64,000 bases of DNA from Acidobacteriota bacterium (lineage in GTDB: Bacteria; Acidobacteriota; Terriglobia; Acidiferrales; UBA7541). The position numbers were made by a program, and so were the translations under genes. Position 1 is the first letter of the stretch; every line of letters begins with the position of its first letter. The stretch is taken from assembly GCA_003223325.1 (NCBI GenBank), contig QHYS01000331.1, positions 1 to 64,000 on the forward strand, given 5' to 3'. Under the pieces are notes generated by a model, which saw only the letters and a list, made by a program, of their open reading frames with translations, was not told where the DNA came from and searched no databases. Positions 48,188-55,406 of this stretch are shown here, in pieces.

Positions 48188-49635
48188 CTACTCCGACTCG
48201 GATAGAAACATCAACTGCCCAGCGCGTTGAATTTGCAGAATCACTGGCGCCCCGGCGGGAACCACCTTCAAGGCGGTTCGCAAGCGGTCGAGCGTCGTCA
48301 TGGGCTGGCCGTTCAGCGTGCGGAGCACATCTCCTGTGACTAAGGAGGTTTCGATGGTTGCCTGGGCCGATCGGGCAGCGACAATGATCCCGAAGGGATC
48401 CCTGAGGCCACTCATCATCAAGGCAACTCTGTTGTCAATCTCAAGCCCCACAATACCCAACTCCGGCACGAGATTCTTCTCCGGGTCGAGCAGTGCGGAT
48501 AAGTCATCCATCTGATGTTTCGGCCACACGACGGGAATATCCAACTCTACTTGAGTTTTCCCTCGCAGCACAGAAAGATGTACGGCTCGGCCTTCCTCCA
48601 ACGTCAAAAAAATAAACGACACGCGGGGCAAATTTTCCGCGGATTCCCGTTCACAGATAAGAGAATATCCCCCACCCTCAGTCCCGCTGCGAGAGCAGGT
48701 CCCCCAGGCAGGACATCGGAATCGATTACGCAGCAATCTCGCGCCAGTCCCAATCCCGTGGCCATCTGCGGTGTGAGAGTCTGAATAAAGATGCCCATCT
48801 CCGATTTATGAAGGTGGCCGTATTTCCGCAGTTGCTGGTAAGCCAAATCCACGATTACGCTGGGGATCGCAAAGCCCAGACCCTCATTGCCTCCCGACTG
48901 GCTCAGGATGAAGGTACTCAATCCCACTACTTCGCCCTTTGCGTTCACTAGGGGTCCACCTGAGTTCCCGGGGTTGATCGGTGCGTCGGTCTGGATATAA
49001 AGCATGAACGCGTCAGGATCTGTTTGGCGCGCCACAGCGGACACGATGCCATGCGTCACAGAGTTCCGCAGCCCTTGCGGGCTACCAAACGCAAACACGG
49101 TTTCGCCCTGCCGAAGGTCTCTATATTTCGCCAGGGTTAACGGTAGTTTGAGGCCGTCTATCTTCAAAAGCGCAAGATCGGCTTCTGGGGCGACTCCGAT
49201 GATTCTCGCCGGCACCATGTTGGTTTTTACCGAGATCGCCGCGGCAATGGAGTCATCGGTTTCCATAGGGGGGACTACCACTTGGACCCGCCGCGCGGAT
49301 TTTACTACGTGCGCATTTGTCATGATGTAACCGTTCGAATCAATGACAAACCCCGACCCGATCACACTCTGACGCCCGATCACAATGCCCGCAGCGCCCT
49401 GATCGCCACCCTCCGCGGGACCGTAGGCTGTCACCTGAAGTTGCACCACGCTTGGTGAGACCTTCTTGATCAGAGCCTCCATCGCTTCGTCGATCTCGTT
49501 CATCCTTCTCAAGGCGTCGCTCGGAGCCTGTTGGGCGACAGCTGGAACTCCGAAAAAGAAATAAGCGGAACAGCGCAAAAGAGTCCTTAGGAGTCTGCGG
49601 CTAATGCTTCTGCGAACCGAGTGAGAAGCGGCCAT
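48188..49635 (-). pseudogene. HtrA/DegP-type serine protease, frameshifted
   Basis: The first frame (49635 down to ~48,650) has a signal-like N-terminus and a complete trypsin-like domain with the triad: His in IMTNAHVVKSARR, Asp in PEADLALLKIDGL, Ser in PINPGNSGGPLVNAKG. A PDZ domain begins (AAGLRVGDILLSVNGNP). The second frame continues ENLPRVSFIFLTLEEGRAVH and holds a second PDZ-like domain (VTGDVLRTLNGQPMTTLDRL), ending at 48188. The break near 48,650 equals one lost base beside a run of four A. Protease activity could survive without the C-terminal PDZ. Confidence 0.85.
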
Positions 49636-51390: not shown

Positions 51391-53325
51391 CTAGCCCTTG
51401 CTGAAACCGGGAGCAGGACGAAGCTCGGGCCGAGGAGCCGGTTTAGGTTCGACGCCCGGATGCGGTTGTGTAGGCGGCACCGACGCAGCCGGCTTGATTT
51501 TCTCCGGCAGTGGTTTGCCGTCGATCAGCAGTCTCAACTCGGCCGCGTCCAGGACTTCGCGGTCGAGCAGTGCTTGGGCGATGCGTTCGAGCACCTCTTT
51601 GTTGCCATCGAGGATATGCCGCGCGGTATCGTAGGCCTGCGTCACGATCTTACGAACCTCGGCATCGATGTGAATCGCTGTGTCTTCGGAATAATCGCGG
51701 TGCTGTGCAATCTCGCGGCCGAGGAAGATAGCTTCCTCTTTCTTCCCGAAGGCCAGCGGTCCGAGTTCGCTCATGCCCCAATCGCACACCATCTTCCGGG
51801 CGATATCCGTCGCTCGCTCGATGTCATTCCCCGCACCCGTCGTGATATGGCCAAGGAAAATCTCTTCAGCCGAGCGGCCGCCCATCAACACAGTGAGAGT
51901 ACCGATCAGGTAGTCCTTCGTGTACGTGTGCTTGTCGTCGATGGGAAGCTGCATGGTCAAGCCCAGCGCCATGCCGCGCGGAATGATCGTGACTTTGTGC
52001 AGCGGATCGGCCCCCGGGGTCATGGCCGCCACGAGCGCATGTCCAGCTTCGTGATAAGCGGTATTCCGCTTCTCTTCTTCCGAGAGAATCATGGACTTGC
52101 GTTCCACGCCCATCAAAACTTTGTCCTTGGACATTTCGAAATCGGCCATGGTGACGACTTTACGATTTTGCCGCGCCGCCCAAAGCGCCGCTTCGTTCAC
52201 CAGGTTGGCAAGATCAGCCCCGGAAAATCCTGGCGTGCCGCGCGAGATCACCGAGAGATCTACATCGTCGGCGATGGGAACCTTGCGCGTATGCACGCGA
52301 AGGATTTCCTCGCGTCCTTTGATGTCCGGCCGAGGCACCACCACGCGACGGTCGAACCGGCCGGGGCGCAAGAGCGCCGGGTCCAGCACATCCGGGCGGT
52401 TGGTGGCAGCGATTAGAATCACTCCCTCATTAGACTCGAAGCCATCCATCTCCACCAGCAAGGCATTCAATGTCTGCTCGCGCTCATCGTGACCGCCGCC
52501 CAAGCCCGCGCCGCGGTGGCGGCCAACCGCATCTATTTCATCGGTGAAAATGATGCAAGGCGCGTTCTTCTTGCCCTGCTCAAAGAGATCGCGCACGCGG
52601 CTCGCCCCCACGCCCACGAACATCTCCACGAAATCGGATCCGGAAATGGAGAAAAAGGGAACGTTGGCCTCGCCGGCAATCGCACGTGCCAGCAGGGTTT
52701 TGCCCGTTCCGGGAGGTCCCACCAGCAGAACGCCTTTGGGAATGCGCCCGCCCAGCTTTTGGAACTTTTGCGGATCCTTCAGGAATTCTATGATTTCCTG
52801 CAGCTCTTCCTTGGCCTCGTCGATCCCGGCCACGTCCTTGAATGTGGCCTTCTTCTGCTGCGCAGTCAGCAAACGAGCGCGCGACTTGCCGAAGCTCAGC
52901 GCTTTATTACCGCCCGCTTGCATCTGCCGCATCATCACGATCCAGAAGCCCACCAGCAGGAACAAAGGCGCCGCAGTAAGCAGGAAGTTGATCCAGTCGG
53001 CGCGGGTAACCTCTTTTACGTTAATGAGAACACCCTTATCGCGCAGCTCTTTGGTGAGATCGGGCGCCGCTTCCTTGAAAAGAGTTACGCGGAATTTCTT
53101 GGCTGGCTCGCGCCACTCGCCTTCGATTTCATAGCTGTTCGGGGAAAGATAGAGCGTGACTTCCTTAACATTCCCGCGGTCCGCCTGGCTCATGAACTCG
53201 CTGTAGCTGGGCTCCTCCTGGCGGGCGGACTGGCCGCTGGCCGACACCATGCGCCAAAGGACGACGCACAGCAAGATGATGAACATCCAGAAGAGTATGG
53301 TCTTTGCGGTCGAACTCGAATTCAC
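51391..53325 (-). CDS. ftsH: ATP-dependent zinc metalloprotease FtsH
   Basis: A 644-residue inner-membrane AAA protease for quality control. Two helices ([18 protein letters not shown] and [19 protein letters not shown]) flank a periplasmic domain. The AAA part has Walker A GPPGTGKT (203-210) and Walker B IIFTDEID; the usual Ile before DEID is Thr. The SRH is [20 protein letters not shown], and the zinc site [13 protein letters not shown]. The tail is Pro-rich. It follows hpt by 51 bp, keeping the common tilS-hpt-ftsH order. Confidence 0.96.
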
Positions 53326-53376
53326 GCTTTACCTCTTTCTTTTCCCGGGTCGCTGGCTACCCGGCCAACCCAGTTC

Positions 53377-53907
53377 TCACGCCCGGCGGGGTTGCACACC
53401 CACATATGGCACGTTACGATACCATCCCCGGCTTCCCGCAAGTCCGTATCCTGCTAAATACTTAGATGCCGCAGCGAAGCAAAAGTAATCAGGCTTCAAG
53501 TCTACCCTACGTTCCGACGGCTTATCGAAAAGCGCCACTAACTTCAAGGAACGCGGGCGGGTTTCCTGCAGCCGCTTCAGTAAAAAATCCTGTGTCAGAC
53601 CTGACTGAACTACCGCATCGACCACCAGCACATCCCTCTTCGCCAGGCGTGGCGGCCGGCTGAAATAGATCTCCCGTTGATCGTGGCCGCTCAACTGGAC
53701 GTCCCGAATCTCCGCCCAGACGAAATGGCAAACCACCGGGCAGGAAATGCACCTTATTAAATCCGCTGCAAAAACGAAAGCGCTGTCGAGCATTACCACG
53801 ACGTCCAGCGTCCGGTCTCCATAATCTCGCGATATCATTCGCCCCACTGCCATTACCCGCCGATCGAGTTGCTGAGAGGTGTAAACACGCTGCAGGGCTG
53901 GTTTCAA
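53377..53907 (-). CDS. hpt: Hypoxanthine phosphoribosyltransferase-like protein
   Basis: A 176-residue type I phosphoribosyltransferase in the place normally held by hpt. The fold is recognisable (RRVMAVGRMISRDYGDRTLD, VVVMLDSAFVFAADLIRCIS, LKLVALFDKPSERRVDLKPD). The PRPP loop reads VLVVDAVVQSGLT, where active enzymes have VLxVEDIxDTGxT, so two of three acidic residues are replaced (D to A, D to Q). Activity may be reduced, altered or lost. The start overlaps the tilS stop by four bases. Confidence 0.75.
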   Translation of the reverse strand: MKPALQRVYTSQQLDRRVMAVGRMISRDYGDRTLDVVVMLDSAFVFAADLIRCISCPVVCHFVWAEIRDVQLSGHDQREIYFSRPPRLAKRDVLVVDAVVQSGLTQDFLLKRLQETRPRSLKLVALFDKPSERRVDLKPDYFCFAAASKYLAGYGLAGSRGWYRNVPYVGVQPRRA

Positions 53908-55406
53908 AGCCTTTCCTCCGAGATAATCACTCCTGCGCTAGTTGCCGGTCGGGGGGCAAACTCGTCCGCGACGGGCAGGCCCCGGGTCCAAACCAGCATA
54001 TTGCCGCTCGTTAGAACTGGCCACGCCTCCCGGTCCGACACAGCTACCCGCTTCATCCTCAAGAACTGCTTAAGCTTGCGGGAGCTGCGCCGCCCCTTTG
54101 GTCGGAAGGAGTCGCCGGGACGCCAGTTGCGCAGAACCAAAGGTAGGTCAAGCAGGTCCCTGTCTAAGGCAACTTTGTCTAAACCAGTGTCGCTCCGCCA
54201 GACGTGCCAGTCAACCACTTTCAAGTGGAAGCGCCGCCCGATTTCCGGTACCGCAACCACCGTGGATTCACCGGGATTTCCGAGTTCCACCAGGCGTGAG
54301 AAGGCCAGCGAAGCAGAAGAATTCGCATCCGAACAACCGGCCGCATATCCCTTCGTTTCCCCACCTGTTCGTGAAAACCACAGCCAATCGAAGCTCCTCT
54401 CCACCATCACTCCGGGCAATTCGATCCGGGAGCCGCTCGAGCCGGACACGGCCAAGCCGACCACGCGTCCCACGTGATCGGCAGTCCATTGCCGGCAGTG
54501 GCCGCGCAGCTCCTCGATAATCCCGCGAACCAGACGCTGCGTGATTGCCAAACGCGCCTCCTCAGGAAAACCGACGCCTGAGAGCGGATCCTCATTCAAG
54601 AGCGGGTTCAAGAGATCGGTACAACGGATGCGAAGTCGGCCGCCTTCTCGCTCCAGGAGCGCATCCAGGCGAGCGCGCGTCAGCACTCTCCAGAAGACTT
54701 CATCCTCGCGTGACATTGCCGCCAGCCGGCCCAAATGGTCGACTATGGCGGGCTGAATCTCGCGTTCCAGAATTGGCAACACTTCGTGGCGGAGCCGCGA
54801 GCGCAGCCGCGAACGATCCTGGTTGCTTGCGTCTTCCCTCCATGGCTGGCCCAGATTATTCAAATATTCGCGCAACTCAGCCCGGCGAACCCCGAGCAGC
54901 GGGCGGACTACTTGGCCGTTGACGGGATAAATTGCCGCGAGGCCTGCGGGTCCCGTACCGCGCAAGACTCGTGCCAAGACTGTCTCCGCCTGATCGTCAG
55001 CTGTGTGCGCCACGGCAACGCGATTGATTCGCCGATCTTTCACCACAGCGCCGAAAAATCCATAACGCAAACGCCGCGCGGCGTCTTCCAGGTTCCAGTG
55101 CCGGACACGCGCGACGCCCGCAACATCTTCTCGCGCGGAAAAGAATGGAAGCCCGGAGTGCGCAGCCAATTCAGCGACGAATTGTTCGTCGTCTTCCGAA
55201 TCAGCTCCTCGCAGACCATGATTGAAGTGCAGCACCGCCAGTTGAATTCCCTGCTGCCCGCTCAGTCCCTGCAGAATCCGAAGCAGAGCTACCGAATCCG
55301 AGCCGCCGGAGACGCCAATTCCGACCCGATCGCCCGCCTGCAGCATCCGGTGGCGCGAAATCGTAACGAGGATTCGCTGAATGAGGTTGATCGACACAGC
55401 AGACAC
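53904..55406 (-). CDS. tilS: tRNA(Ile)-lysidine synthetase
   Basis: A 500-residue enzyme that modifies C34 of the AUA-decoding tRNA(Ile) with lysine. The P-loop GIGVSGGSDSVALLRILQGL lies near residue 33, followed by LAVLHFNHGLRGADSEDDEQ, VAVAHTADDQAETVLARVLR and RPLLGVRRAELREYLNNLGQ. The C-terminal domain (LVLRNWRPGDSFRPKGRRSS, KLKQFLRMKRVAVSDREAWP) is complete. GTG start at 55406. Confidence 0.95.
   Translation of the reverse strand: MSAVSINLIQRILVTISRHRMLQAGDRVGIGVSGGSDSVALLRILQGLSGQQGIQLAVLHFNHGLRGADSEDDEQFVAELAAHSGLPFFSAREDVAGVARVRHWNLEDAARRLRYGFFGAVVKDRRINRVAVAHTADDQAETVLARVLRGTGPAGLAAIYPVNGQVVRPLLGVRRAELREYLNNLGQPWREDASNQDRSRLRSRLRHEVLPILEREIQPAIVDHLGRLAAMSREDEVFWRVLTRARLDALLEREGGRLRIRCTDLLNPLLNEDPLSGVGFPEEARLAITQRLVRGIIEELRGHCRQWTADHVGRVVGLAVSGSSGSRIELPGVMVERSFDWLWFSRTGGETKGYAAGCSDANSSASLAFSRLVELGNPGESTVVAVPEIGRRFHLKVVDWHVWRSDTGLDKVALDRDLLDLPLVLRNWRPGDSFRPKGRRSSRKLKQFLRMKRVAVSDREAWPVLTSGNMLVWTRGLPVADEFAPRPATSAGVIISEERL

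Follow-up and report, generated by a model that had tools for sequence, protein, structure and literature searches.

HptL, a probable non-catalytic relative of hypoxanthine phosphoribosyltransferase encoded between tilS and ftsH in Acidobacteriota

Introduction

The gene string tilS-hpt-ftsH, in which hpt encodes a hypoxanthine phosphoribosyltransferase (HPRT), is common to distant bacteria. In Bacillus subtilis the HprT protein encoded between tilS and ftsH is described as a salvage enzyme, and its complex with TilS as a DNA-binding activator of ftsH with two sites before that gene (PMC8152036); in Streptococcus mutans, hpt, tilS and ftsH are reported as one operon (PMC8112672). Where a single gene does both jobs, the second role of HprT is not easily studied apart from its housekeeping reaction. 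Phosphoribosyltransferase (PRT) domains are also found in regulators: that of Firmicute PurR is described as being without enzyme activity and as binding PRPP or (p)ppGpp (PMC8789054). HPRTs themselves are reported to assemble as dimers and tetramers, with interfaces that serve regulation (PMC6783271).

Here we analyse hptL, a gene at the moonlighting position in an acidobacterial contig (QHYS01000331.1; 'the window' is the whole stretch analysed, 64,000 nt). In the titles and abstract openings of the open PMC literature, we found no description of an HPRT pseudoenzyme at the tilS-ftsH position or in Acidobacteria. Because the linked copy lacks catalytic residues while another, intact one lies elsewhere, the two roles have apparently been separated by nature, and separate copies make the non-catalytic role directly testable with purine salvage undisturbed.

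Results

The hptL locus

The features of the locus are collected in Table 1. The hptL frame is open throughout, with no internal stops, and in the window its start shares four nt (TTGA) with the tilS stop. The order is that of B. subtilis, where the published description gives a tilS/hpt overlap of one nt rather than four; however, HprT is described there as a salvage enzyme, whereas HptL is without the catalytic residues, and the spacing between hptL and ftsH is often near zero. On a different contig, the genome of the window carries a separate Hpt with its motifs intact (G000:C197:15964-16455; 207 bits with TIGR01203). The 24 named relatives that were found are metagenome-assembled Acidobacteria, for example QHYQ01000244.1 (90% identity) and QHYR01000269.1 (89%).

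Table 1. Features of the hptL locus and of the HptL active site, in window positions
Feature	Position	Strand	Basis or remark
hptL, HPRT-like protein, 176 aa, TTG start	53377..53907	(-)	ORF list; PF00156; TIGR01203; AlphaFold2; PDB matches
tilS, tRNA(Ile) lysidine synthetase	53904..55406	(-)	upstream neighbour of hptL
ftsH	51391..53325	(-)	51 nt downstream of hptL stop
GGAGG, Shine-Dalgarno-like site of hptL, within the final tilS codons	53915..53919	(-)	read by eye
PPi loop (loop I), L40-D41-S42, replacing L-K-G	53782..53790	(-)	alignment
Flexible catalytic loop (loop II), F62-V-W-A-E-I-R-D69; Ser-Tyr gone, I67-R68 there	53701..53724	(-)	alignment
PRPP loop, D97-A-V-V-Q-S-G103, replacing E-D-I-I/L/V-D-T/S-G	53599..53619	(-)	alignment; codons located by hand
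K129, equivalent of Lys131 of B. anthracis Hpt-1, kept	53521..53523	(-)	alignment to 6d9q
Y150, equivalent of Phe152 of B. anthracis Hpt-1 (purine pocket); aromatic here, variable in class	53458..53460	(-)	alignment to 6d9q

Elsewhere in the window, at 48188-49635 (-), a trypsin-like serine protease with a PDZ domain is encoded in two frames that overlap, 48604-49635 and 48188-48736, each of which holds a part of the PDZ domain; a frameshift or an assembly error would give this picture.

Fold and active site

HptL matches PF00156 with 45 bits (cut-off 26.3), the domain starting at residue 17, and scores 101.2 bits with the HPRT equivalog model TIGR01203 (NCBIfam), under its 150-bit cut-off. 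Its Pfam matches are to the PRT family only, and within its 176 aa there is no N-terminal winged-helix domain. The closest PDB sequence matches are HPRTs, and the AlphaFold2 model (pLDDT 89.6, pTM 0.85, from 25 sequences) compares over its whole length with HPRT structures at Z 22.7-25.9 among the 50 matches listed, with 3o7m giving VIA Z 25.9 and an rmsd of 1.4 over 164 residues at 30% identity; a Foldseek comparison also matched the model to HPRTs. HptL is like HPRTs (TIGR01203; PDB 3o7m, 1r3u, 1g9s) in its whole-length fold, its purine-contact Lys and the arginine of the YRN motif, but unlike them in the PPi loop, the flexible loop, the PRPP loop and the GLD aspartate, with 101 bits against the required 150. 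Because HptL fails four of the sequence features tested despite the homology, we do not class it as an active HPRT.

Residue equivalences were derived from an alignment of HptL to 6d9q together with position offsets. A sequence-only reading of this DNA had pointed to a D-A-x-x-Q PRPP loop as a loss of acidic residues, which is correct but understates the change, as LKG has also become LDS and Ser-Tyr has become Ile-Arg. The PRPP loop runs V-V-D97-A98-V-V-Q101-S-G, compared with V-E-D-I-I/V-D-S/T-G in solved HPRTs, so that Asp97 and Ala98 stand for Glu99 and Asp100 of B. anthracis Hpt-1. R68 of the flexible loop is at least 90% conserved in alignment A3, and R164, the equivalent of Arg165 of the B. 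anthracis enzyme, is kept. The aspartate of the GLD motif binds metal, and where active copies have it HptL has Ala157. For B. anthracis Hpt-1, the side chains of Glu99 and Asp100 are described as holding the ligand, Lys131 as contacting the exocyclic oxygen of guanine and Phe152 as part of the guanine surround (PMC6783271).

Judged by these residues, HptL is very probably a pseudoenzyme that would make no IMP or GMP. Binding of a purine base or nucleotide may nevertheless persist, though not by way of the usual Mg-PRPP chemistry. The label 'hypoxanthine phosphoribosyltransferase' on linked genes of this kind may be wrong.

A linked class in 61 genomes

In a sample of 61 genomes (the window's own and 60 relatives), matches to the HPRT model comprised copies above 150 bits, a middle class of 73-137 bits, and weaker ones that on our reading look PyrR-like. 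The full-length middle-class genes, including that of the window, lie between tilS and ftsH on the same strand and in the same order in 32 of 32 cases, each with a single open frame spanning the domain, and a changed PRPP loop is common to them all; two partial middle-score matches with canonical loops at contig ends (G051:C559, G015:C139) were left out of this count. The sequence-only reading had taken the gene to be intact and in its conserved place, which is borne out by the absence of internal stops and by the tilS-gene-ftsH order in 32/32 relatives. It had also foreseen either a variant loop conserved among acidobacterial homologues or close relatives with the canonical loop: the 32 linked copies form a conserved subfamily, and EDxxD occurs in 0/37 linked copies of the window's class as delimited phylum-wide below. 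Local mutation or sequencing error as the source of the loop is ruled out by the 32 linked relatives and the low dN/dS.

A linked gene is lacking in 29 genomes: tilS is followed by ftsH with no Hpt match between them in 22 of these, the string is interrupted by a contig end in two, and five have no TilS match. Incomplete genomes included, 26 of the 61 carry both kinds of gene, six the linked gene only, 21 a copy above 150 bits only, and eight neither. Around canonical Hpt genes, no tilS or ftsH match was found in the flanks of 30 loci (L008-L037, up to 1.5 kb) or in the wider surroundings of ten (L069, L072, L073, L076 and L102-L107, L107 repeating the gene of L030).

The window's hptL gave dN/dS values (Nei-Gojobori) of 0.112, 0.072 and 0.081 against three congeners, at dS of 0.42, 0.93 and 1.97, the last being near saturation; among the three congeners themselves the ratio was 0.083-0.129. 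With two of the congeners, the corresponding values were 0.064-0.098 for canonical hpt, 0.19-0.27 for tilS and 0.013-0.023 for ftsH. With a ratio similar to that of canonical hpt, hptL is under strong purifying selection, about as tight as that on the working enzyme.

A phylum-wide clade with graded loss of motifs

We then searched 297 Acidobacteriota genomes and inspected the neighbourhoods of roughly the first 50 of the matches listed plus 19 further regions, a twentieth being a repeat of L149. At least 27 of 90 family codes include genomes with an hpt gene between tilS and ftsH; families such as f31 and f33 had unlinked canonical copies only, among the loci looked at. A quick tree placed 72 linked rows and two relocated f42 rows on one side of a branch (98 SH-aLRT), and in a careful tree 44 linked rows make up one branch side (100/97). 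The clade holds without the motif columns (98/90) and with six more linked loci (100/99), its bootstrap support being 98-100. On the TilS tree (55 rows) the presence of hptL needs 10 changes, which indicates repeated loss.

The residue counts cover 74 members of the clade and 46 copies that are unlinked; repeats (L005, L109, L001, L107) and two partial rows with canonical loops (L074, L075) had been removed beforehand. Unlinked copies have EDxxD in 46/46, LKG (as L-K/R-G) in 46/46 and S/T-Y/F in 45/46, with all three in 45/46. Within the clade, LKG, Ser-Tyr and EDxxD are all kept in 3/74; LKG and EDxxD persist without Ser-Tyr in 17, LKG alone in seven and EDxxD alone in two, and the remaining 45, to which the window's class belongs, have none. 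The 17 copies that lack Ser-Tyr alone suggest that this part of the flexible loop was lost earlier.

In the window's class each of the three motifs is found in 0/37. The replacements recur: the PPi-loop Lys has become Asp or Glu in 37/37, the second PRPP acid is Ala or Gly in 35/37, and the flexible-loop Tyr is replaced by Arg in 27/37. The GLD aspartate is present in 2/37, and various residues (H, Q, D, N, E, R) stand where the catalytic-base Asp would be. In the 'GF' motif the Phe (F144 in HptL) is invariant in all 74 clade members; the purine-contact position is Lys in 67/74 and Arg in 7/74 (30/37 and 7/37 in the window's class); and the Arg165 equivalent is Arg in 30/37 of that class. The Phe152 position is Phe or Tyr in 24/37, versus Phe in 46/46 unlinked copies.

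In two f42 genomes, G109 (L129) and G121 (L124), the decayed copy is not next to tilS or ftsH; ABC-transporter genes are its neighbours, together with a DUF374 gene in G109, and tilS is on a different contig in both. The tilS-ftsH linkage is therefore not indispensable, and in these genomes the protein may act in trans or have another role.

Division of labour with a second HPRT

A second HPRT above 150 bits accompanies 0 of 20 linked copies that have LKG and EDxxD, versus 43 of 54 decayed copies (Fisher 1.4e-10). Below 150 bits, two of the 20 genomes have a second match, which is partial in G168 (106 bits) and is the linked-type L201 in G078 (147 bits). The PRPP loop is also intact in linked loci of five more genomes (G091, G103, G117, G122, G149), where, in keeping with this pattern, they are the sole hits among the matches listed; three of them keep LKG and two (f36) have Asp for its Lys. 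However, the intact state changes only about three times on the tree, and an independent-pairs test of intact motif versus no second Hpt yielded three pairs when all branches were used and one on starred branches, so the association describes a history and not a count of independent events. Nor is a second enzyme always present, since in 11 of the 74 genomes no HPRT other than the decayed copy was found, above 150 bits or at all, and five of these genomes are at least 90% complete, namely G045 (98%), G047 (91%), G065 (100%), G075 (96%) and G081.

Junctions with tilS and ftsH

By a simple test, the hptL start overlaps the tilS stop at 23/37 HptL+ loci, and a chance match is seen at 8/22 HptL- loci; a search for Shine-Dalgarno sites in the tilS tails gave no separation between the two groups (26/37 vs 14/22). 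At 14 of 68 linked loci the end of hptL lies within 3 nt of the approximate ftsH start or overlaps it, too close for ftsH to have its own promoter and operators of the B. subtilis kind, which makes such a promoter unlikely at these 14 loci. Among five loci inspected, the hptL-ftsH gap of the window contains an inverted repeat, CCGGGT-N8-ACCCGG, at 53345-53364 (-); it is absent from the two nearest congeners (G001, G003), which leaves it doubtful as an ftsH operator.

Co-variation of TilS with HptL was sought by ranking the 103 TilS columns that are at least 85% conserved in HptL+ genomes. No interface signal was found among the top 12, at most about three of seven independent pairs agreeing, and we therefore claim no TilS interface. 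TilS E498 and I496 are more conserved when HptL is present, but they overlap the Shine-Dalgarno-like site of hptL in the tilS tail, which would be a simpler cause of their conservation than an interface, although the search for such sites in tilS tails did not set HptL+ and HptL- loci apart.

Discussion

We slightly favour the reading that HptL is an ancient HPRT paralogue within the phylum, catalytically dead and kept in the tilS-hptL-ftsH string as a non-catalytic regulator. The pseudoenzyme part of it, which the sequence-only reading had offered as a possibility, is strongly supported by a conserved subfamily, joint losses in the active site, purifying selection and an intact Hpt elsewhere. 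HptL resembles known PRT-derived regulators and sits at the place of a moonlighting HPRT. The likeness to Firmicute PurR, as far as that protein is described in the source (PMC8789054), is that a PRT active-site pocket is kept for regulation without catalysis; PurR, however, has an N-terminal winged-helix domain and binds PRPP, whereas HptL consists of the PRT domain alone and its PRPP loop is changed.

A rough proposal for how this came about can be made. Once a second Hpt took over the chemistry, the linked copy would have been free to lose its PPi- and PRPP-loop residues, and its fold and its place beside tilS would have been retained while the catalytic loops decayed. The two jobs reported for B. 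subtilis HprT, salvage and TilS-bound ftsH activation, would then each have a gene of their own. The most likely role of HptL would be that of a TilS partner which tunes lysidine synthesis or the expression or levels of tilS and ftsH, and the signal it couples would most likely be purine status, read as a purine nucleotide. We give the partnership with TilS an even chance of being right, and purine sensing by HptL a somewhat smaller one. That HptL is a sensor for TilS or FtsH, as the sequence-only reading put it, is plausible from its position, the tilS overlap, the B. subtilis precedent and the kept purine-contact Lys; the case for ligand sensing is weaker than that for retention of the fold, because an aromatic residue occupies the purine-pocket Phe position in only part of the class. 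The fullest version of the proposal, in which HptL is a purine-nucleotide- or alarmone-sensing subunit of TilS that ties lysidine-tRNA(Ile) and, via a shared transcript, FtsH to purine status, is tentative and in its entirety rather unlikely. If it were true, the staged loss of motifs would be evolutionary evidence that the TilS/FtsH-linked job of HPRT needs no catalysis.

Other readings of the same data differ chiefly in what the remaining pocket does. HptL could be a nucleotide-blind scaffold that stabilises TilS, or its membrane or FtsH context, with no ligand at all. The phosphate-binding chemistry is gone and the class does not conserve the Phe of the purine pocket, as this would have it, and the TilS-HprT complex described in B. 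subtilis offers a precedent (PMC8152036); but Lys or Arg makes up the purine-contact position in 74/74 and the Arg165 equivalent is Arg in 30/37, although both could be structural, and we regard a pure scaffold as improbable. Alternatively, the pocket may have been re-tooled for an altered reaction, such as another phosphoribosyl transfer or nucleotide hydrolysis or phosphorolysis. The conservation of the replacements within the class (Asp or Glu in the PPi loop, Arg for Tyr in 27/37) has the look of a re-tooled site. However, the PRPP-loop acids, the PPi-loop Lys-Gly, the GLD aspartate and the flexible-loop Ser-Tyr were lost jointly, and a catalytic-base position that varies among H, Q, D, N, E and R is odd for a catalytic residue. 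With several elements of the chemistry gone together, the enzyme of altered mechanism that the sequence-only reading had allowed for is unlikely for the class, and we give it only a slim chance.

It could also be that HptL acts on its active paralogue, as a non-catalytic subunit whose mixed oligomers with canonical Hpt tune that enzyme independently of TilS and FtsH. An HPRT above 150 bits is available in 26 of the 32 genomes with a linked copy, and the dimers and tetramers reported for HPRTs, with their regulatory interfaces, would suit such an arrangement (PMC6783271). Yet the decayed copy occurs with no second HPRT detected in the near-complete genomes G045, G047, G065 and G075, canonical Hpt occurs without HptL in 21 of 61 genomes, and the position of the gene points to TilS, which together make this a long shot. 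Finally, the repeated loss of hptL and the canonical copy elsewhere are what one would see if HptL were what is left of a formerly active linked Hpt that is decaying and heading for loss, but a remnant would hardly show a dN/dS of about 0.1, like the canonical gene, one open frame in 32/32 and the same replacements retained across families; we find this scarcely credible.

Further HPRT genes in the phylum

Some other HPRT genes seen in this analysis may be of separate interest. Three linked copies (L118-L120, in G106, G093 and G081) keep LKG and read ISDIIDTG, only the first PRPP acid being changed, and their genomes have no other HPRT above 50 bits, a halfway state. G078 has two linked-type hpt genes on different contigs (L144 and L201), with EDILDTG and NDIIDTG loops; the NDIIDTG copy lies directly before an ftsH and the second copy groups with family f49, and contamination, transfer or duplication are all possible. 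In G043 and G054 a second, free-standing HPRT (L103, L105) has TPF or SSF in the flexible loop and a Cys before the Phe of the GF motif; the two group together (100/99) and may represent an enzyme of different specificity.
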